From Planctomycetota bacterium (lineage in GTDB: Bacteria; Planctomycetota; Phycisphaerae; Phycisphaerales; SM1A02), in NCBI GenBank assembly GCA_027622195.1, contig JAQBZO010000001.1:158263-222262 (forward strand): 64,000 nucleotides of DNA, written 5' to 3'. Within the stretch, counting starts at the first letter, position 1. Every line of letters begins with the position of its first letter. The notes under the pieces are model-generated. The model was not told the DNA's origin. It saw only the letters and a list, made by a program, of their open reading frames with translations, and searched no databases. The translations under genes were made by a program, and so were the position numbers. This document shows, one piece after another, positions 27,200 to 39,217 of this stretch.

Positions 27200-27709
27200 A
27201 TGGAACCAAACCTTTCAAATGACACTCATGAAGTCGATGGGTCGGATACGTCGCGCGATCAAATCGCGCATGCTTACTCCACTCTGTGTGAGTCGCTGAT
27301 CGAGCGCCTTCGCAGCACATTCGGACGAACCGCAGCAGAAGATGCGGTCAACGAGTTTTTCTTGCGACTCATGCGCATTGGTCCTGGAGATGGGAAACGA
27401 TTGACCTTCAGTTACCTCTATGTGTGCTGTCGTCGGCTCGCAGCGCGTACTGCATGTCAGTCGCGAACACACCAATTGCTTGCGCAAGAGTCTCCAGCCC
27501 ACTGCGAGCACGGAGAAGAGACGGAAAGTCTCACCGCGCTCTTGCAAGGGGTCACGCGCGTCGAATGGGATGTCATTCGCCTGACCGTGGTGGATGGACT
27601 GACCTACGAGCAGGCTGCCGCGAGTCTGGGTATCTCCATTTCCACCCTCATGGGCATTCGACAGCGGTCGATTTCGCGCATCCGTGATCGGATGGGGCGT
27701 TCGCTCTAG
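27200..27709 (+). CDS. ECF-like sigma factor
   Basis: Region 4 EWDVIRLTVVDGLTYEQAAASLGISISTLMGIRQRSISRIRDRM; weaker region 2 (GRTAAEDAVNEFFLRLMRI). Confidence 0.75.
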   Translation: MEPNLSNDTHEVDGSDTSRDQIAHAYSTLCESLIERLRSTFGRTAAEDAVNEFFLRLMRIGPGDGKRLTFSYLYVCCRRLAARTACQSRTHQLLAQESPAHCEHGEETESLTALLQGVTRVEWDVIRLTVVDGLTYEQAAASLGISISTLMGIRQRSISRIRDRMGRSL

Positions 27710-27722
27710 AATCCGCCTCTCT

Positions 27723-29621
27723 ATGACTGAAATGGTGGTTGGCATCGATCTTGGAACGACCAATTCACTCATCGCCGTGTGCGATGAGCGTGGTCCCCAC
27801 ATCATCGCATCAGAGTCGGGGCGGCGCATGCTTTCCAGTGCCGTGCGTTACGACGACTCGGGTCGGGTGGAGTCAGTCGGGATGGATGCGCGCCTGGGCG
27901 CGGCGGGATATCCAACACGCACCGTCATGAGCGCAAAGCGGTGGATGGGACGAGCCTTCTCTGAGCGATGCGATGATCCAACGGGCGCAGCTCCGTGCGT
28001 CGAGGGATTGCGAGGACGTGCCGTCTTCGCCGTGGGAAACATGACGCGCTCTCCAGAAGAAGTGGCTGCCGCGGTTCTTGCGACCCTTGTCGCTGACGCT
28101 GAACATCTCCTTGGCTTTCGACCCAAGCGGGCGGTGATCACGGTGCCCGCTTACTTTGATGATGGACAGCGGCAAGCAACGCGCGATGCAGCGCGACTTG
28201 CGGGCATCGACCCTGTCCGCATTCTCAATGAACCGACCGCTGCCGCGTTGGCCTACGGAGTGGGGCGACCAGGCGCTTCGACTGAAACGATTGCGGTGTA
28301 TGACCTCGGCGGAGGCACCTTCGACATTTCGTTGCTTGAGGTCACTCCTCCTGCGAAGGATCAGCAAGAACTCGCAGGAGATGAAGGATTGTTTCGCGTC
28401 CTCTCGACGGCTGGCGACACCCATCTCGGAGGAGACGATCTGGATGTACTTCTTGCGCGGTATCTGCTTCGCCAAGTGGCTGGATCGAATGCAGTACTCG
28501 AGTCGCTTTCTCCGCACGAGCGCATTTCGCTCATCGCCGCGTGCGAGACGGCGAAGTGCGCGCTGTCATTCCAAGATCAAACGGTCGTGCGATGGTCGAT
28601 CAGTGCGGGTCACATTCGATCACTTCCACTGGATCGACCGACTCTGGAATCGATCGCTGCCCCGTGGATTGAAAGGACGCTCGTTGCTTGTCGTCGTGCT
28701 TGGCGCGACGCTGGCAGTCCGGCAATTGATCGACTCTTGATGGTGGGTGGATCGACACGACTCGATGCCGTGCGACACGCGGCGGCCGCCTTGTTTCAGA
28801 CTGAACCATCCACGGCATTGGATCCCGATGAAGTGGTCGCGCTCGGCGCAGCCGTTCAAGGGGCAGTGCTCTCGGGAAAGCGCCGCGACCTCTTGTTGCT
28901 CGATGTCGTGCCTCTTTCTCTCGGTGTCGAGACCGTCGGCGGAGCGGTAGCCAAAGTCATTATGCGCAACACTTCGATTCCAACGCAAGCAGTCGAGATG
29001 TTTTCCACCAGCGTGGACGGGCAGTCCAAGATCTTGATCCATGTCGTTCAGGGTGAACGCGAACTCGTCGCCGATGTTCGATCACTCGCACGATTTGAAT
29101 TAGTAGGGATTCCACCGATGCCCGCAGGGATTCCACAATTGGAGGTTCGATTTGTAGTGGACGCGAATGGCATGCTTCAAGTGTCGGCGGTCGAGAGGCG
29201 ATCTGGCCGTCGTGCCGCGGTGCAAGTCCTTCCGACCTATGGATTGAGTGCGGCTGAAGTCGAATCGATGGATTCGGCGAGCGTTGTCCATGCGCGCGAG
29301 GACATGCGCCGACACAGGATGATTGATCTCATCGTGAATGCACGGCTTGATCTTCGTTGGATCGGCGAAGCCACTTCGAGAGTGCGCGATTCGCTGGATC
29401 GGGAGACGACCGAGTCCGTTGACAGAGCCACGCAAGAACTGTCTCTCCTCGTTGCAAGGGCTGAGCACGATCCCGATTCAGTCGATGCGGATGAATTGCA
29501 CCGCGCCAAGGAGGCACTCGATCGAGCGAGTGTGCGCGTTCACGAAGTGAGTATCGCTGCAAGTCTGAAGTCGATGGCGGCTGAGGCGGGCGGATTATCC
29601 AATGAAAGTAGGACAACATGA
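27723..29621 (+). CDS. Hsp70 chaperone, HscA-like
   Basis: VGIDLGTTNSLIAV, AVITVPAYFDDGQRQATRDAARLAG, EPTAAALAYG, DLGGGTFDISLLE; substrate domain IHVVQGERELVADVRSLARFELVGIPPMPAGIPQLEVRFVVDANGMLQVSAVE resembles HscA more than DnaK. Confidence 0.85.
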   Translation: MTEMVVGIDLGTTNSLIAVCDERGPHIIASESGRRMLSSAVRYDDSGRVESVGMDARLGAAGYPTRTVMSAKRWMGRAFSERCDDPTGAAPCVEGLRGRAVFAVGNMTRSPEEVAAAVLATLVADAEHLLGFRPKRAVITVPAYFDDGQRQATRDAARLAGIDPVRILNEPTAAALAYGVGRPGASTETIAVYDLGGGTFDISLLEVTPPAKDQQELAGDEGLFRVLSTAGDTHLGGDDLDVLLARYLLRQVAGSNAVLESLSPHERISLIAACETAKCALSFQDQTVVRWSISAGHIRSLPLDRPTLESIAAPWIERTLVACRRAWRDAGSPAIDRLLMVGGSTRLDAVRHAAAALFQTEPSTALDPDEVVALGAAVQGAVLSGKRRDLLLLDVVPLSLGVETVGGAVAKVIMRNTSIPTQAVEMFSTSVDGQSKILIHVVQGERELVADVRSLARFELVGIPPMPAGIPQLEVRFVVDANGMLQVSAVERRSGRRAAVQVLPTYGLSAAEVESMDSASVVHAREDMRRHRMIDLIVNARLDLRWIGEATSRVRDSLDRETTESVDRATQELSLLVARAEHDPDSVDADELHRAKEALDRASVRVHEVSIAASLKSMAAEAGGLSNESRTT

Positions 29622-30409
29622 GCGAGATGCGAGTCTGCCTTATCGTGACGGCTGCAGGTCAAAGCGCTCGTTTTGGATCTGACAAGTTAGGAGAGGACAT
29701 GGGCGGTCGCCCCGTCCTGCTGCGATCGGTCGAACCCTTTACGAAGCGCAACGAGGTCGTCTCGATCTTGGTGGCTGCACCTCCGCACGCAATCGATTCG
29801 TTCAAGGGTCGATTCGGACCCACACTCAGTTTCCACGGGGCGATCGTGATCGCAGGCGGTGCGACAGATCGATGGGAAACGGTTCAACTGGCACTCGCTC
29901 AAGTGCCGGCTGACTGCACCCATGTCGCGATTCACGATGGAGCGCGTCCTTGCGTGAGCGAAGAATTGATCGGCCGCGTTTTCGATGCGGCGAAAGTTGC
30001 TGCAGCGGTGATTCCCGGCGTTCGCGTGCGAGACACGGTGAAGAGAGTCTCTGAAGCGTCGTTCGCCGCAACCGAAGATGACACACTTGCCGATGCCATC
30101 CTCGGTGATGCGGGGAAAGAGTCGGCCGTCGGACATCGAGTCGAGGAAACCGTCTCGCGCGAGCGACTCATGCTGATTCAAACTCCACAGGTGTTTGAGC
30201 GTGGGCTCATTGAGCGTGCCTATGCGCAGTCGAACCTTGAGGGGACGACCGATGATGCATCCCTCGTTGAGCGACTTGGAGAAGCAGTCCTCGTGGTGGA
30301 TGGCGATCCACGCAACATCAAGATCACGGACAAGTTTGATCTCGCACAAGCGCGATTGCTCGCTGGACTCAGGGCGCCCGCGGATCGTCCGTCGCACTTG
30401 CGTTTTTAG
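29618..30409 (+). CDS. ispD: 2-C-methyl-D-erythritol 4-phosphate cytidylyltransferase
   Basis: VTAAGQSARFGSDK, IAGGATDRWETVQLAL, VAIHDGARPCVSEELI, LIQTPQVFERGLIERAY, TDDASLVERLG, GDPRNIKIT. Confidence 0.93.
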   Translation: MSEMRVCLIVTAAGQSARFGSDKLGEDMGGRPVLLRSVEPFTKRNEVVSILVAAPPHAIDSFKGRFGPTLSFHGAIVIAGGATDRWETVQLALAQVPADCTHVAIHDGARPCVSEELIGRVFDAAKVAAAVIPGVRVRDTVKRVSEASFAATEDDTLADAILGDAGKESAVGHRVEETVSRERLMLIQTPQVFERGLIERAYAQSNLEGTTDDASLVERLGEAVLVVDGDPRNIKITDKFDLAQARLLAGLRAPADRPSHLRF

Positions 30410-30602
30410 AACGATCACTCGCAGGATGCGCCGAAACGGTGAGGCGCGCGCGCTTGGTGTTGCCTTGTTGAGGAGGACATCCCGCGCACTGACCTGTTGT
30501 CTTTCGGCCGCGCGGAAGGAGTGGCCGGATCACCATCCACAATGCCGTCATTGCGGCAAGAGTCACCACCCAAAACTGCCAGTCGTCGAACGGAATGGGC
30601 AT
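30369..30602 (-). CDS. Small single-TM Cys-containing protein, FeoB-associated (FeoB-associated Cys-rich membrane protein-like)
   Basis: MPIPFDDWQFWVVTLAAMTALWMVIRPLLPRGRKTTGQCAGCPPQQGN...; ATGA overlap with the feoB stop. Confidence 0.65.
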   Translation of the reverse strand: MPIPFDDWQFWVVTLAAMTALWMVIRPLLPRGRKTTGQCAGCPPQQGNTKRARLTVSAHPASDRSKNASATDDPRAP

Positions 30603-32662
30603 CACAGCACATCCCTCGCTGGTGATTCGAACCATGTCATCAGGAAGTACGCGACCGCGCCAAGGATCCACGCGATGGCAGTCATCCAGCCGAGTTGGAT
30701 GGCGGGCCACTTCCAAGAGCCTGTCTCTCGACGCACCACGGCAAGGGTCGGCAGGCATTGCAGCGCGAGAACATAGAACACGAGCAACGACACCGTCGAT
30801 GGACGGTCGAGAAGGGGCGAGCCATCGACCCGCTTGGCGGAACGAACGAGGGTGACCGTGTCTTCGTCCACTTCTGCATTGTCGCCAGCGCCGATGAGCA
30901 CCTTGAGCGTGCTGACAAACACTTCTCGCGCGAGGAAACTCGTCATGACCGCGACAACGACTTCGCGCTCAAATCCAAGTGGACGAAAAACGGGTTCGAT
31001 GAATGCGCCGAGTTGGCCAGCTAAACTGCTGGACCGTTGAACGCCCGCTTGCTTGGCATCGGCGTCGTCCTGGGCAGCGCTTGATTCAAGTCGCAGAGCC
31101 AGTTCCGTGACTCCAGTTGATTGTTCAGCCTGTGCGAGAAGTGCCGCTGATTGGTGGCGAAGTTGAGTCACTTCCACCGTCTCGGCAGCACGCGGAAACG
31201 CGCTGAGCCACCACATCACGATGCAGATGGTGAGAATGATCGATCCCGCTTGCTTGAGGAAGAGCGCGCCTCGGTCGATGGCAGTGTGAAGCGCAACGCG
31301 CCAATCCGGAAAGCGATACGGCGGCAACTCGATCATCATGGGTCGAGGCGCGCCGGGAAGGACTGTTTTTCCCGCAATCCAAGCGGTGAACAGGGCAGCA
31401 ATGGCGCCGAGTGCGTACGCGCCGACGAATGCAGCTCCTGCAGCGATCGGATTGTCAGCGAAGAGAAGGCTCGTCACAAGGACATACACCGGCACGCGCG
31501 CGCTGCACGAAAGAAACGGCGCGACCAAGATGGTGGCCAGTCGATCTCGCGTGTTCGGAATCAGTCGTGTGGACATGATGCCAGGCAGCGCGCATGCATG
31601 ACTCGAGAGCAGCGGAATGAAGGACTGTCCTGGAAGTCCGAAGCGGCGCATCAGTCGGTCCATCGCGAAGGATGCTCGAGCGAGGTAGCCAGAATCCTCG
31701 AGCAGTGCGAGCAGGAAAAAGAGCAGACAAATCTGAGGCACAAACACCACTGTTCCTGCGATGCCGCCGACTACACCTTGTGAGAGGAGGTCCGCGATCA
31801 TGCCCGGTGGAATGACTTGGGTCATGAATCCGCCCAGATGGGCGAAGAGTGCGTCAATCCACTCCATCGGATACTGCGCCAACCAAAAAATGCTCGCGAA
31901 GAAGAGCGTCATCACGAATGCGAAGACGACGAGACCTCCGATGGGATGCGTGAACGCTGTGTCGAGTCGCTCGGTGAACGAGTCGTCGGTGAGATCGCTC
32001 TTGTGAGAGTGTCCAGCAACGTCCTGGAGTGTGCGACTGGCCCAGGCGGAAAGGGCTGCATCACCTGGTTCTCCAGCAGGAGGATCACTCTCGAGCAGTG
32101 CTGTTCTGACGCGAAATGGCCCTTGAGACTGTGTTTCGATCGCCTGAGAAAGTTGGAGACAACCTTGCCCCGTTCGTGCGGACAGTGCGATGACAGGACA
32201 TCTCAGCCGCTCGGACAGAAGTGCTGTGTCAAGAATGAGTCCCTGACGAGCCGCTTCATCGCACAGATTGAGTGCGACGACTGCACGCGTTGATCGTTGC
32301 AACACACTGGCGACGAATTGCAAGTTACGAGCAAGGTTGGTGGCATCGGCAACAATGACGACGATGTCGGGAGCCTGCTCGTCTTCTCCCTCAAGCACGC
32401 GAAGGCATACGGCACTTTCTGGCGATTGGAGATGAAGTCCATACACGCCGGGTAAATCGATGAAGTCGATCGGCGTGCCCGAGTCCGTCCATGCTCTTCC
32501 GCGATGTTCTTCAACGGTGCTGCCTGGATGATTCGCCGTATGAGATCGAAGTCCACACAGTCGATTGAAGAGAGTCGTCTTGCCGACATTCGGATTGCCG
32601 ATGAGGACAGCACGTATCGGATTCGAGACGCGCGCTTCACCATCGAATGAGTGGGACGCCAT
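30602..32662 (-). CDS. feoB: Ferrous iron transport protein B
   Basis: G1 GNPNVGKTTLFNRLCG, NHPGSTVEEHRG, DLPGVYGL, C-terminal permease with QSFIPLLSSHACALPGIMSTR. Confidence 0.95.
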   Translation of the reverse strand: MASHSFDGEARVSNPIRAVLIGNPNVGKTTLFNRLCGLRSHTANHPGSTVEEHRGRAWTDSGTPIDFIDLPGVYGLHLQSPESAVCLRVLEGEDEQAPDIVVIVADATNLARNLQFVASVLQRSTRAVVALNLCDEAARQGLILDTALLSERLRCPVIALSARTGQGCLQLSQAIETQSQGPFRVRTALLESDPPAGEPGDAALSAWASRTLQDVAGHSHKSDLTDDSFTERLDTAFTHPIGGLVVFAFVMTLFFASIFWLAQYPMEWIDALFAHLGGFMTQVIPPGMIADLLSQGVVGGIAGTVVFVPQICLLFFLLALLEDSGYLARASFAMDRLMRRFGLPGQSFIPLLSSHACALPGIMSTRLIPNTRDRLATILVAPFLSCSARVPVYVLVTSLLFADNPIAAGAAFVGAYALGAIAALFTAWIAGKTVLPGAPRPMMIELPPYRFPDWRVALHTAIDRGALFLKQAGSIILTICIVMWWLSAFPRAAETVEVTQLRHQSAALLAQAEQSTGVTELALRLESSAAQDDADAKQAGVQRSSSLAGQLGAFIEPVFRPLGFEREVVVAVMTSFLAREVFVSTLKVLIGAGDNAEVDEDTVTLVRSAKRVDGSPLLDRPSTVSLLVFYVLALQCLPTLAVVRRETGSWKWPAIQLGWMTAIAWILGAVAYFLMTWFESPARDVL

Positions 32663-32670
32663 GGCCGCGG

Positions 32671-33231
32671 TTACGACGGGTTGAGTGGCTCAACCAGAAC
32701 CTGATCGGCGAGTGGTCGAGCGAGCGCGATTCGAGTGCGATCGATTCGGATGATGCACTCGTGTCCCGAACATCGCTCGACCTCGCACTGGTCTGCCAAG
32801 CCCATCGCGGCGAGGAGGCATCGGTCCGATTCGGGGAGGTGAGTGAGTGCCGAACAATCCACCCGTGCCCGCGCTCCAACGGGAAGTTGTGAGAGGGGAA
32901 TCCGCACACGCTTTTTGGACATCTCAACCGACATCTTTGCATCATATTGAGACTCGTTCTCAATATCAAGTCCGACAGATTTCTTTATCCGATTGTCCAG
33001 AATCCGCCGCTCTCGGTAGGCATCGTGCTCTCCCTCGATGATCGGAAGTTGCCCCGCCTTGTGCTGTGCATGAAGACTCTCCAGTTGAGATCGGCACCAT
33101 CCGCAACCCGTTCCTGCTCCGAGGCACTCGGTCATGAGCGACGCAACAGATGGATTTTCGCGTACGAGAAATGCGCGCAACTTCGCGAGCGACACACGAT
33201 GGCAAATGCAAACATGATCGTGCTCATTCAT
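32671..33231 (-). CDS. Fusion: N-terminal Bfd-type [2Fe-2S]-like domain + C-terminal FeoA domain
   Basis: N-term CICHRVSLAKLRAFL...SVASLMTECLGAGTGCGWCRSQLESL (CxC...CxxC); C-term IPLSQLPVGARARVDCSALTHLPESDRCLLAAMGLADQCEVERC...RTRIALARPLADQVLVEP; next to feoB. Confidence 0.82.
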   Translation of the reverse strand: MNEHDHVCICHRVSLAKLRAFLVRENPSVASLMTECLGAGTGCGWCRSQLESLHAQHKAGQLPIIEGEHDAYRERRILDNRIKKSVGLDIENESQYDAKMSVEMSKKRVRIPLSQLPVGARARVDCSALTHLPESDRCLLAAMGLADQCEVERCSGHECIIRIDRTRIALARPLADQVLVEPLNPS

Positions 33232-34055
33232 GGGCTGTCCTTACGCGTGATTGTAATCGTTTGGACATCGAGTCCGATGACCGCATCGCAGTACGGTCCG
33301 ATGAATGGGCGGGACTGGTGCGAGAACGCACCTGCGCTCGGGCGTTCTTCATCCATCCGAAGATTGAGCCTCACGAATCCTTCGACTGAGACGAGCCCGT
33401 TGCCCTCGAGCGCATCGCGAATCGAATCGCCTTGACGGGGCTTGAGTGTGAACTGGATTGGAATGACAGGTTCAACCCGAGTCGTCAGTTGTTTTTCTCC
33501 CTTAGTGGGAACTGGGATGGGCTGTGCTGCTTCGACCGTCCAATGTCCGTCGCGCGCACGGACCGAACGAGTGACACGAAGAGTCCAGCGTGCGGTGGTC
33601 TTTCGCCACAGGCGAGCTTCACTGACTGTCCATCCGTCGAGTTGTTGCTGAAATCGAGTGATGTCAGTCGAGGACGAACCCTTGGAGAGCGGATTCCCGC
33701 CAAAAACATGGATGTATCGCAATCGTTCGTAGTGAATGATCTCATCGGGATCAGACGACTCTTCGGGAATCAGTGTGGGATCGATGTCCAGTTGCGCTGA
33801 CGGTGTCGACTCGGATGTCGGCACAGTGGATGGGGCGGGCGCGGGTTCAGCAAGAGGGCGCGTCGATGGCGCAGTCCGCGCCGACTCCTCAAGCAATTGA
33901 ATGCGACGAAGCAGCGCGGCGATTTCCGTTTCACATTCAAGGACGCGCTCCTTGAGCCGATCGTTCTCCTTGCGAAGATCCGCCTCGCTCTGTCCATGGG
34001 CGACCGCCCCGAACAGAAGTGGAAGAATGAGGAGAGAAACTTGGGCGGAGAACAT
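33228..34055 (-). CDS. Secreted coiled-coil protein of unknown function, first gene of the feo operon
   Basis: Signal MFSAQVSLLILPLLFGAVAHGQ, heptad-rich ADLRKENDRLKERVLECETEIAALLRRIQLLEES, Pro/Ser/Thr linker, C-terminal beta-rich region; ATGA overlap with the FeoA fusion. Confidence 0.7.
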   Translation of the reverse strand: MFSAQVSLLILPLLFGAVAHGQSEADLRKENDRLKERVLECETEIAALLRRIQLLEESARTAPSTRPLAEPAPAPSTVPTSESTPSAQLDIDPTLIPEESSDPDEIIHYERLRYIHVFGGNPLSKGSSSTDITRFQQQLDGWTVSEARLWRKTTARWTLRVTRSVRARDGHWTVEAAQPIPVPTKGEKQLTTRVEPVIPIQFTLKPRQGDSIRDALEGNGLVSVEGFVRLNLRMDEERPSAGAFSHQSRPFIGPYCDAVIGLDVQTITITRKDSP

Positions 34056-34146
34056 TTTGCGCACTATCCTTGTCAAGAGGAGTCTATCGCTGCCAACGTC
34101 ATCCGTTCATCCGATTCTTGCTCTCACGCGCCGTGTCCGTCAAAGG

Positions 34147-35798: not shown

Positions 35799-36845
35799 TT
35801 GACTCGATGGATTGCGGTGCATTGTTTGGTTCTTGGTCTCGTCCTCGTGGGATGCGGTGACGATCGCGCGCAGGACAATGAGACTTTGGTGGTGTACGCA
35901 TCGGCCGATGAACCCGTTGCTCGCCTCATCGTCGATGCGTTCGAGAAAGAGTCTGGGATTGACGTCACGCTCCGCCTCGATTCTGAAGCATCAAAAACGG
36001 TTGGACTCGCTGAAAGACTTCGTGCTCAGCGCGCGCACCCAGAAGCCGATGTGTTTTGGAGCAGTGAATGTTTCGTGATGGATGCCCTTGCGGTCGAAGG
36101 GATTCTCACTCCACTTCCCGCCACAGTGGTTGAATCGTGGCCGCGAAAACTGGTGAGCGCAGACGATCGATGGGCGGGATTCGCGGGAAGAGTGCGCGTT
36201 GTGGTGTGGAATCCACAGAAGATCGAGGAGACCTTGGTGCCAACATCACTGGAAGGATGCTCTTCGCGTGAGAAGAACGTGACGCTCGCGATCGCCGACG
36301 TGCGATTCGGAACTACTCGTGGTCACTTCAGCGCACTTGCGGCGTTGATGAGCGACGAATCGTGGTCCAACTGGTGCCAACAACTGGCGCAATCGAATCC
36401 AATGTTGCTGCCCGGTGGGAATGCCGCCGTCGTTGACGCCGTGGCTTCTGGAGAAGCGATGGTGGGACTTACCGATTCGGACGATGCGATCGCAGCGCAG
36501 GCGCAGGGACGATCCATTGCGTGGCGTCCGATTGGACTTGGACTTGATGCAGAGTGCGGACCTCACTCGGTGTTTGTGATTCCCAATACCGTTGGCATCA
36601 TCGTCGGCGCTCGGCATCCCGATTCCGCGGCGGAGTTTGCTCAGTTTCTCCTCTCCTCCCGCGGAGAATCCATCTTGGCTCAAAGCGCAAGCGCGAATGT
36701 GCCGTTGGGGTCCGACGCGAAGAATGGCGCGGTGACCTTGGGTGATTCAATCTGCCTTGTGGATGTGCGAACCGTCGCATCAGCCATGACCCGTGCGATC
36801 GAAACATTCCTCGCTCGCGTGCGTGACGCGGCTGGTGAACGGTGA
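35799..36845 (+). CDS. Fe3+-type ABC transporter substrate-binding lipoprotein (TTG start)
   Basis: Lipobox LGLVLVGC; ETLVVYASADEPVARLIVDAFEKESGIDVTLRLDSEASKTVGLAERLRAQRAHPEADVFWSSE; SD-like GAGGGG upstream of TTG. Confidence 0.85.
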   Translation: MTRWIAVHCLVLGLVLVGCGDDRAQDNETLVVYASADEPVARLIVDAFEKESGIDVTLRLDSEASKTVGLAERLRAQRAHPEADVFWSSECFVMDALAVEGILTPLPATVVESWPRKLVSADDRWAGFAGRVRVVVWNPQKIEETLVPTSLEGCSSREKNVTLAIADVRFGTTRGHFSALAALMSDESWSNWCQQLAQSNPMLLPGGNAAVVDAVASGEAMVGLTDSDDAIAAQAQGRSIAWRPIGLGLDAECGPHSVFVIPNTVGIIVGARHPDSAAEFAQFLLSSRGESILAQSASANVPLGSDAKNGAVTLGDSICLVDVRTVASAMTRAIETFLARVRDAAGER

Positions 36846-39217
36846 TCGAGTTCGCAGGTTCAGCGCTTCTCGAGCCGTGGAGCACGACGGTGGCGCGGAC
36901 TTTCGCATGGATCATTCCCGTCGCTCTGGTTTCGGGAATACTCGGAGTCTTCATCTCGCGCAACACGCGTCCACTGCGCGGTTCATGGTGGTGGCTTGTG
37001 ATGGCCGCGATGATTCCTCCATTCGCGATGTTTCATGCTGTGTGGTCGAGGTGCGCGACCGACGCATTTCTTGCTCGACCGGTTTGCCTCGCCGCCTCGC
37101 TCGTCGTCTGGGGGACCGCGCTGTCAGCCCTCATCTCTTCCATCTGGAGTCGTTCAACCGATGCCGATGATCTCACTGCGCTCGATGGCGCAACATGGTT
37201 CGATATCGTGCGATTGGAGTTCGTGCGTCGTGCGCCCGCGGCATGTGCTGGAGCTGCGGCAGTCGCCCTCGTCTTGTTCGGAGAGTCCACCGCATTCGAT
37301 CTCGCGCAAGTGCGCACCGTCGCCTTCGAGCTCAAAGCACTCGCCGCGCTCGGCGTCTCGCTCGTTGCATTGATTCAGATCGCGTTGCCACTGCTCATCG
37401 CACTCATGGTGTGTTCGATTCTTGTGGGAAGGGGCATGGCAGGGTGGACGCTGCGAACATCCAACATCGCCTCGATGCAAGGCAAGTGGACCCTTTCGAC
37501 GAAGCGAGCGATTGGACCAATCATCCTCGGACTCATCCCAGTGATCTCGATTCTCTGCGCGCGCAATGTCTGGGAGGACGCGGCTGGTTTGCGCGCCGAA
37601 CATCTCCGAGGAATTGGTTGGTCGATCTCTGCCGCACTGTGCGCTTCCATCGTTCTGGGCAGTTTCGCAGCGGTGGCCACAACGATGATGGCCCAGTCAA
37701 TCGCCAATCGGCGCGGTCGATGGATCTTGATCGTGCTGTGTTCATCGATTGTGTTGTTTCTTGCTGCGGTTCCCGCTGCGATCCTCTCGTCGGTACTCCT
37801 TCATACTGCGGACCTCTTGTTCGAGACCACCGCCACCTCAGGTTGGTGGCTCGTGGTCCTCGGACACTCGTTGCGCGCGGCCGCCGTGGTCTGGTGCATC
37901 GCCCTTTTCGCCGCGGTGCAATGGGATCGATCGGCCTCGGATGCAGCGGCACTTCGCGGAGGTGCCACATCCTTCGCGATCGCTCTGTGGCCCACCGCGC
38001 TTCGCGTCTTTCTATCGTCCGCACTCATCGTCTTCGTCCTCTCGTTTGGAGATGTGTCCGTCGCCGGAGCACTCGAACCTGCGGGAGCGGATCGTCTCGC
38101 GACTCGGCTCATTGACGCGCTTCATTATCAAAGACCAGGTCCGATTGCTGTGCTTCTTCCGTTGGTGGGATGTGCAGCCGTGATCGCGGCGACCGTGATG
38201 GCCATCATCTCAAAACGAGTTCGAACCCTTCACCCGTGCATCATGGTGATGCTGTTTCTTCCGCTCATCTTGGCAGGATGTGCTGAGAGCGGCAGCGAAC
38301 ACTCGGTTGGCTCACCACTCTCGCATCCGAGAGTGATCGGCGCACCGGGTCGAGCGAATGGACTCTTCGAGTACCCGCGCGCGCTGGCTGTGGATCCGCG
38401 AAACGGCGACATCATTGTGATTGACAAGACGGCACGCGTTCAGCGATTTCACTCAGATGGATCGCTCGATCAAATCTGGATGATGCCCCGTTTCGAGCAG
38501 GGCAAACCAACAGGAGTCTCGGTGGCTCCAGATGGACGAGTGTTCGTGGCCGATACGCATGAGCATCGCGTGCTCATTTTCTCGAGCGACGGCAAGGAAC
38601 TGTTCTCTCTTGGACAATCAGGCACAGGCCCCGGCGAGTTCATCTATCCAACCGACATTGCCTTTCGATCGGATGGACGGATTCTTGTCAGCGAGTACGG
38701 TGGGAACGATCGCATTCAAGAGTTCACCCATGATGGCAAGTGGATCCGTTCGTTTGGAGAACGAGGTGATCCGGGTCCCGCTGAATCCATTGATGGGATC
38801 GCCAGGTTCGATCGTCCTCAGTCCATCCTGCTCGATGAGCAGGCGAATCGAATCTATGTTGCCGATGCGTGCCACCACCGCATTGTCGAACTCACGGGGG
38901 AGGGGGAATTCGTCCGATCCATCGGCGAAGCAGGAGTGGACCAAGGGCAACTGTGGTATCCGTATGGAGTCGACCGACTCGATGAACACACCCTCGTCGT
39001 GTGCGAGTTCGGCGCGAACCGACTCCAGCGGCTCGACCTCAAGACGGCGAAAGTGGGTCCCGCGTGGGGGCGCTCTGGAAGTGCGGTGGGCGAACTCGCG
39101 GCTCCGTGGAGCGTTGCTGTCTGGGACGGGCACATCATCGTCTGTGACGGACGAAACGGCAGAGTTCAAGTGGTCAGCGTGCCGTCTTCGGAAGCAATGA
39201 CGGGTAGCGATCCGTAG
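36842..39217 (+). CDS. ABC permease (FbpB/ThiP-like) continuous in frame with a lipobox-bearing NHL-repeat protein
   Basis: GTG start overlaps the SBP stop; N-terminal ~450 aa polytopic permease; then RVRTLHPCIMVMLFLPLILAGCAES and NHL repeats (FEYPRALAVDPRNGDIIVIDK, PTGVSVAPDGRVFVADTHEHRVLIFS, FIYPTDIAFRSDGRILVSEYGGNDRIQEF, LWYPYGVDRLDEHTLVVCEFGANRLQRLD). Confidence 0.8.
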   Translation: MIEFAGSALLEPWSTTVARTFAWIIPVALVSGILGVFISRNTRPLRGSWWWLVMAAMIPPFAMFHAVWSRCATDAFLARPVCLAASLVVWGTALSALISSIWSRSTDADDLTALDGATWFDIVRLEFVRRAPAACAGAAAVALVLFGESTAFDLAQVRTVAFELKALAALGVSLVALIQIALPLLIALMVCSILVGRGMAGWTLRTSNIASMQGKWTLSTKRAIGPIILGLIPVISILCARNVWEDAAGLRAEHLRGIGWSISAALCASIVLGSFAAVATTMMAQSIANRRGRWILIVLCSSIVLFLAAVPAAILSSVLLHTADLLFETTATSGWWLVVLGHSLRAAAVVWCIALFAAVQWDRSASDAAALRGGATSFAIALWPTALRVFLSSALIVFVLSFGDVSVAGALEPAGADRLATRLIDALHYQRPGPIAVLLPLVGCAAVIAATVMAIISKRVRTLHPCIMVMLFLPLILAGCAESGSEHSVGSPLSHPRVIGAPGRANGLFEYPRALAVDPRNGDIIVIDKTARVQRFHSDGSLDQIWMMPRFEQGKPTGVSVAPDGRVFVADTHEHRVLIFSSDGKELFSLGQSGTGPGEFIYPTDIAFRSDGRILVSEYGGNDRIQEFTHDGKWIRSFGERGDPGPAESIDGIARFDRPQSILLDEQANRIYVADACHHRIVELTGEGEFVRSIGEAGVDQGQLWYPYGVDRLDEHTLVVCEFGANRLQRLDLKTAKVGPAWGRSGSAVGELAAPWSVAVWDGHIIVCDGRNGRVQVVSVPSSEAMTGSDP

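Follow-up and report, generated by a model that had tools for sequence, protein, structure and literature searches.

The window, that is, the whole stretch of 64,000 nucleotides analysed here, carries on its minus strand a gene that joins a Bfd-like domain to FeoA, directly ahead of feoB. In agreement with the initial annotation, the frame is a single one, starting with ATG and running without interruption. The genome from which the window derives (G000) has 1.79 Mb and is 88% complete; a single FeoA gene and a single Fer2_BFD gene were detected in it. The genes and domains of the locus are as follows.

30602-32662, minus strand: feoB, 686 aa, 8 nt downstream of the fusion (ORF and profile matches; TIGR00437 432 bits, cut-off 316)
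32671-33231, minus strand: fused bfd-feoA coding sequence, 186 aa (single ORF; Pfam Fer2_BFD and FeoA both above cut-off)
32686-32901, minus strand: FeoA SH3-like domain, residues 111-182 (Pfam, Foldseek)
32998-33072, minus strand: C-terminal tail of the Bfd-like family, residues 54-78 (P63, Y72 and R76 conserved, stand-alone relatives included)
33073-33213, minus strand: predicted Bfd-like [2Fe-2S] domain, residues 7-53, with CxC...CxxC and the invariant C36 and W45 (Pfam, alignment, model, Foldseek)
33228-34076, minus strand: upstream gene of unassigned function and uncertain start (its TGA overlaps the ATG of the fusion; a similar neighbour lies upstream in G003)

The upstream gene gave no convincing Pfam match. 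Since its TGA overlaps the ATG of the fusion, the fusion is probably read from the operon of that gene. An HSP70-like gene and ispD (27684-30409, plus strand) adjoin feoB, and these neighbours recur in relatives.

Both halves of the fused protein are recognized by profile, which supports the domain assignment made earlier. Fer2_BFD (Pfam PF04324) matches residues 7-53 at 26.9 bits against a cut-off of 26 (6.3e-6), and FeoA (Pfam PF04023) matches residues 111-182 at 33 bits against a cut-off of 23 (6.2e-8). Elsewhere, Fer2_BFD scores 31-32 bits in three fusions of genus g25 and 24.7 bits in G002, to be read against the same cut-off of 26. The CxC...CxxC pattern that had been noticed in a Bfd-like context consists of C8, C10, C43 and C46, which align with the Bfd cysteine positions of 6e6r; these four and a fifth cysteine, C36, are invariant in the 45 alignment rows covering the domain. 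An AlphaFold model of the fusion, built on an alignment of 60 rows (mean pLDDT 83.8, pTM 0.49), presents confident Bfd helices and a confident FeoA domain joined by a disordered junction, with pLDDT <50 within residues 99-105. The low pTM leaves the relative placement of the domains undefined. Foldseek superimposes the first domain on the Pseudomonas Bfd structures 6e6r and 4e6k at about 1.5 Å over 51-55 columns (6e6r: 1.5 Å, 55 columns), and the second on the FeoA structures 3e19, 3mhx, 7r7b and others.

The first domain shares with Bfd its cysteine ligand pattern and fold, whereas the planctomycete subfamily has the invariant C36, a CxWC motif, a conserved C-terminal tail and the fusion to FeoA, with no ferritin found in the fused genomes. 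Residues encoded at 32998-33213 (minus strand), together with the stand-alone homologues, define this subfamily by the invariant fifth cysteine (TECLGAGTGCxWC) and the tail PxxY...R; it is common across Planctomycetota, even where ferritin was not found. The second domain shares with FeoA the SH3-like domain and the position directly before feoB, but the fusion adds the N-terminal Bfd-like domain and several conserved extra cysteines. The FeoA domain (32686-32901, minus strand) is rich in cysteine, C154 and C159 being present in 20 of 20 covering rows and C126, C138 and C149 in most; judged from these residues, it could be a metal site in its own right.

No Bfd-FeoA fusion, and no Fur operator kept in such a linker, is described in the open-licence literature that we searched, in line with the earlier statement that no characterized example was known. 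FeoA has been described alone, as FeoA-FeoA and as FeoA-FeoB fusions, some with 'an additional domain' (PMC8980893, PMC8749426). The present gene resembles these natural fusions in being a lineage-specific joining of FeoA, but here the partner is a predicted iron-sulphur domain that is no Feo part, and a predicted operator is retained in the linker.

It is in this linker that a feature missed by the initial annotation is found. The stretch between the two domains appears once to have served feoAB as Fur-type promoter and operator, and it would allow FeoA to arise without the Bfd part. The predicted elements are given here in the order of reading.

32964-32969, minus strand: predicted -35 hexamer TTGATA of the trapped feoAB promoter (promoter scan; shared with split relatives)
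32947-32963, minus strand: predicted Fur-type operator TTGAGAACGAGTCTCAA, 17 bp, encoding part of IENESQ (homologous to the intergenic boxes of split relatives)
32941-32946, minus strand: predicted -10 hexamer TATGAT, codons of Y96 and D97 (promoter scan and relatives)
32932-32934, minus strand: internal ATG, Met100, 6 nt past the -10 hexamer, predicted leaderless FeoA start (spacing kept in relatives)
32671-32934, minus strand: predicted short product, stand-alone FeoA of 87 aa (from linker comparison)

The layout in the window is TTGATA-TTGAGAACGAGTCTCAA-TATGAT-GCAAAG-ATG, and an independent promoter scan returned TTGATA-17-TATGAT as the best site in the region (10/12). The peptide IENESQYD would be present in the linker because the old feoAB promoter is read as protein. 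Comparison with relatives in which bfd and feoA are split shows where these letters come from: most have TTGAGACTGAGTCTCAA or a near variant between the two genes, and those of genus g53 present TTGATA/T, the box, TACCAT, 6 nt and then the ATG of feoA. Such a short distance past the -10 hexamer suggests a leaderless mRNA in g53, and the same 6-nt spacing is found in all three fused species of genus g1. Two of these, G001 and G002, have a box variant, TATGAT and ATG at the spacing of the window, with a weaker -35 hexamer; in G001 both arms of the box have changed in concert (TTGCGA…TCGCAA), so that the outer symmetry is kept. The box is retained in 8 of 11 fused genes, including five of the eight g25 fusions, where it is encoded as VETESQYH. 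G026, G202 and G197 are fused and have lost the box, TATGAT alone being retained, and no substitute Fur box of at least 6 bits was seen within the 4.5-10 kb examined for these box-less fusions.

A PWM trained on split relatives alone gives 26.2 bits to the window site and 10.8 bits to the next best site in the 64 kb. TGAGANNNNNTCTCA occurs once in the 1.79-Mb genome, at the fusion linker, and a search of the genome for a second convincing box, using an extended pattern that allowed 3 mismatches at most, gave no better site. We also redrew the linker codons from local codon usage with the protein held fixed (20,000 trials). The observed score was reached in 185 trials for G000 (0.9%), 46 for G001 (0.23%), 18 for G002 (0.09%), 9 for G190 (0.05%) and 1 for G196 (0.005%), results that are not independent, since species of the same genus are related. 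For the fusions without a box, the scores do not exceed chance. Because recoding seldom reaches the observed score, the DNA itself appears to be under constraint, and the linker to be conserved beyond the need of the protein.

The likely regulator of the linker box is Fur. A Fur box of delta-proteobacteria, WTGAAAATNATTTTCAW, has been published, and in the Fur-box-controlled feoAB operons of that group a 17-bp palindrome arranged in the same manner likewise precedes feoAB (PMC545781); the operator in the window differs from them in doubling as protein code, IENESQYD. The Fur-box-like palindrome overlaps the predicted sigma-70-like promoter of feoA. A single FUR-family match (86 bits) was found in the window genome; the best NCBIfam models for it are those of iron Fur, yet with scores below their cut-offs. 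The agreement in layout with the published box and this one match point to Fur; another regulator could act at the linker box. Since the box is unique in the genome, a Fur regulon of this bacterium would comprise very few genes or rely on weaker sites. A Fur box described in Planctomycetes was not found in the open-licence literature searched.

The pattern TGAGACTNAGTCTCA is present in 25 of 121 family genomes and its reversed control in none. Its sites lie upstream of feoA-feoB (several genera), a heme oxygenase gene and a cysteine desulfurase gene, among others; a cytochrome c7-like protein and secreted proteins of unassigned role are also encoded next to sites. At eight loci from several genera (L209, L210, L212, L213, L216 and L223-L225) the same Fur-like palindrome lies between a secreted-protein gene and a divergent gene. 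The secreted protein carries a motif like DRWMYPFNxTPGxRP, gave no Pfam match in the one case tested, and is possibly a new iron-regulated surface protein.

Among 183 family genomes, the complete fusion is found in ten species genomes of two genera: all three g1 species (G000, G001 and G002) and seven in g25 (G026, G190, G196-G199 and G202). The fusion of G195, also in g25, is cut by the contig end and is not among the ten. In G003, G065 and G066, bfd and feoA share one frame and are separated by one stop; the two genes are separate and adjacent in G193, G201 and G200 (g25) and in members of g2, g15, g17 and g53. In most other relatives the Bfd-like gene is not beside feoA. A survey of 399 genomes sampled from the whole phylum showed that stand-alone Bfd-like proteins are common but gave no further fusion beyond g1 and g25; an ancient conserved architecture was rejected on this confinement of the open fusion. 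A pattern-limited scan of GTDB genomes gave, among its best 80 loci, five fused ones, all of the g25 type. The depositor titles of the scanned loci name mostly Phycisphaerales MAGs, several from lakes, some titles being unreliable ('Chitinophaga pinensis'), and we take the carriers of the fusion to be some freshwater Phycisphaerales bacteria. A scan of viral contigs gave no match.

The source of the window resembles a MAG and the frames can be joined by single-base changes, as expected if the fusion were an assembly or sequencing error. The chance of this is negligible, and the explanation was rejected, as the linkers are consistent in ten genomes of two genera. The initial annotation had considered that a frameshift might remove the fusion in related genomes. 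This is so in part: a stop interrupts the frame in G003, G065 and G066, and about one base does so in G193 and G201, while the fusion is intact in the ten genomes.

In an IQ-TREE phylogeny on Bfd, FeoA and FeoB, the fusions of g1 and those of g25 form two distinct clades, both well supported, between which split lineages branch. In g25, G200 branches as an outgroup with split genes, and the split pair G193 and G201 is nested inside the fused group, about one base away from its fused sisters at the junction (CCCAGTGACG against CCAGTTGACG). The shortest account of g25 is one fusion and one fission, and fusion occurred at least twice overall; in this one clade it has apparently reverted. At least two independent fusions argue for a young, repeatable event and not for an ancient sensor architecture. 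The three g1 fusions have 57% protein identity, identical linker length and the frame kept, with synonymous sites heavily diverged. Linker pN/pS is low in some g25 pairs, mostly within the old Bfd tail, the truly new coding stretch being too short to yield a clean dN/dS. G192 (L194, G192:C139) lacks both bfd and the box, and its feoA overlaps the end of the upstream gene in an ATGA; its genus relatives do have bfd at that place. The relatives provide a natural series of separate genes, genes one stop apart, fused genes, genes split again and loss of the operator.

We consider it reasonably probable that the locus has two outputs: the Bfd-FeoA fusion from the upstream operon and, at low iron, FeoA with FeoB from the internal promoter. 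A stand-alone Bfd-like gene would have ended one operon directly before feoA-feoB, which would have had a Fur-type promoter of their own in the gap after bfd. Stop loss or a frameshift in bfd would have let its frame run through this promoter into feoA, with promoter and operator staying intact within the new coding sequence. Ribosomes on the upstream operon transcript would now make the fusion, bringing the cluster of the Bfd part near FeoA and FeoB; at low iron, Fur would release the box and a leaderless mRNA would be made for the ordinary 87-aa FeoA and for FeoB. This scheme fails in G026, G202 and G197, where the box is lost and FeoA, as a result, probably depends on the fused reading. The locus would illustrate how a regulated promoter can persist inside coding sequence, and a single ORF call of 186 aa would hide the likely stand-alone FeoA and the iron switch. 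We regard as rather unlikely an extension in which the two proteins act as an isoform switch, with Fur blocking the internal promoter under iron-replete conditions while the cluster of the fusion informs FeoB of the iron or redox state, and with a flood of plain FeoA and FeoB at low iron. If true, one stretch of DNA would be protein linker and operator at once.

An appreciable, though lesser, chance has to be given to the fusion as a nearly neutral by-product: loss of a stop would have appended FeoA to Bfd, the FeoA that serves the cell would come from the internal promoter, and the fused protein would have no particular function. The difference of one stop or one base between fused and split genes is what such an origin would leave, as are repeated fusion with apparently one reversion, the persistence of the box in 8 of the 11 fused genes and the loss of bfd altogether in G192. 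Frame and linker length are nevertheless maintained across the diverged g1 species, and the box-less fusions, where FeoA probably needs the fused reading, also speak against it. In the model of the initial annotation, the Bfd cluster would sense iron or redox state within the protein itself and adjust FeoB by way of FeoA. The intact cysteine ligands, the Bfd fold, the fusion to FeoA, the adjacency of bfd and feoA in several genera and the lack of a detectable ferritin partner make a sensor role for the fusion possible; we assign it a slim chance. The Bfd-like gene is apart from feoA in most relatives, G192 has feoA without bfd, and, precisely at low iron, plain FeoA made from an internal promoter would reduce the share of the fusion. 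Built-in gating of FeoB is not supported in the form proposed, the fusion being young, of at least two origins, apparently reversible and, in G192, deprived of bfd. The role of FeoA is still debated, and a natural Fe-S-FeoA fusion is a ready probe of FeoA as a sensor carrier.

The Pfam match and the Bfd fold would also suit a true bacterioferritin-associated ferredoxin, its release of iron from storage being coupled by the fusion to iron uptake. This is highly improbable. A ferritin or bacterioferritin (PF00210) was found neither in the window genome nor in the nine other complete-fusion genomes, some of them incomplete MAGs, with a control that matched in 14 of 14. With no PF00210 protein found in these ten genomes, a bacterioferritin is an unlikely partner for the Bfd part, and this reading was rejected. 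In the alignment, position 2 of Pa-Bfd, a Tyr that we take to be a BfrB contact, is His in the fusion.

Elsewhere, the window has a 791-aa ORF (36842-39217, plus strand) after a solute-binding protein gene (35799-36845). Its long N-terminal half is hydrophobic and permease-like, with no Pfam match, and is followed by a lipobox-like stretch and then NHL repeats. ORFs of like size recur at the same place in relatives (782-789 aa in G001 and G002). Because a solute-binding protein gene precedes it, this ORF may join a permease to a beta-propeller.
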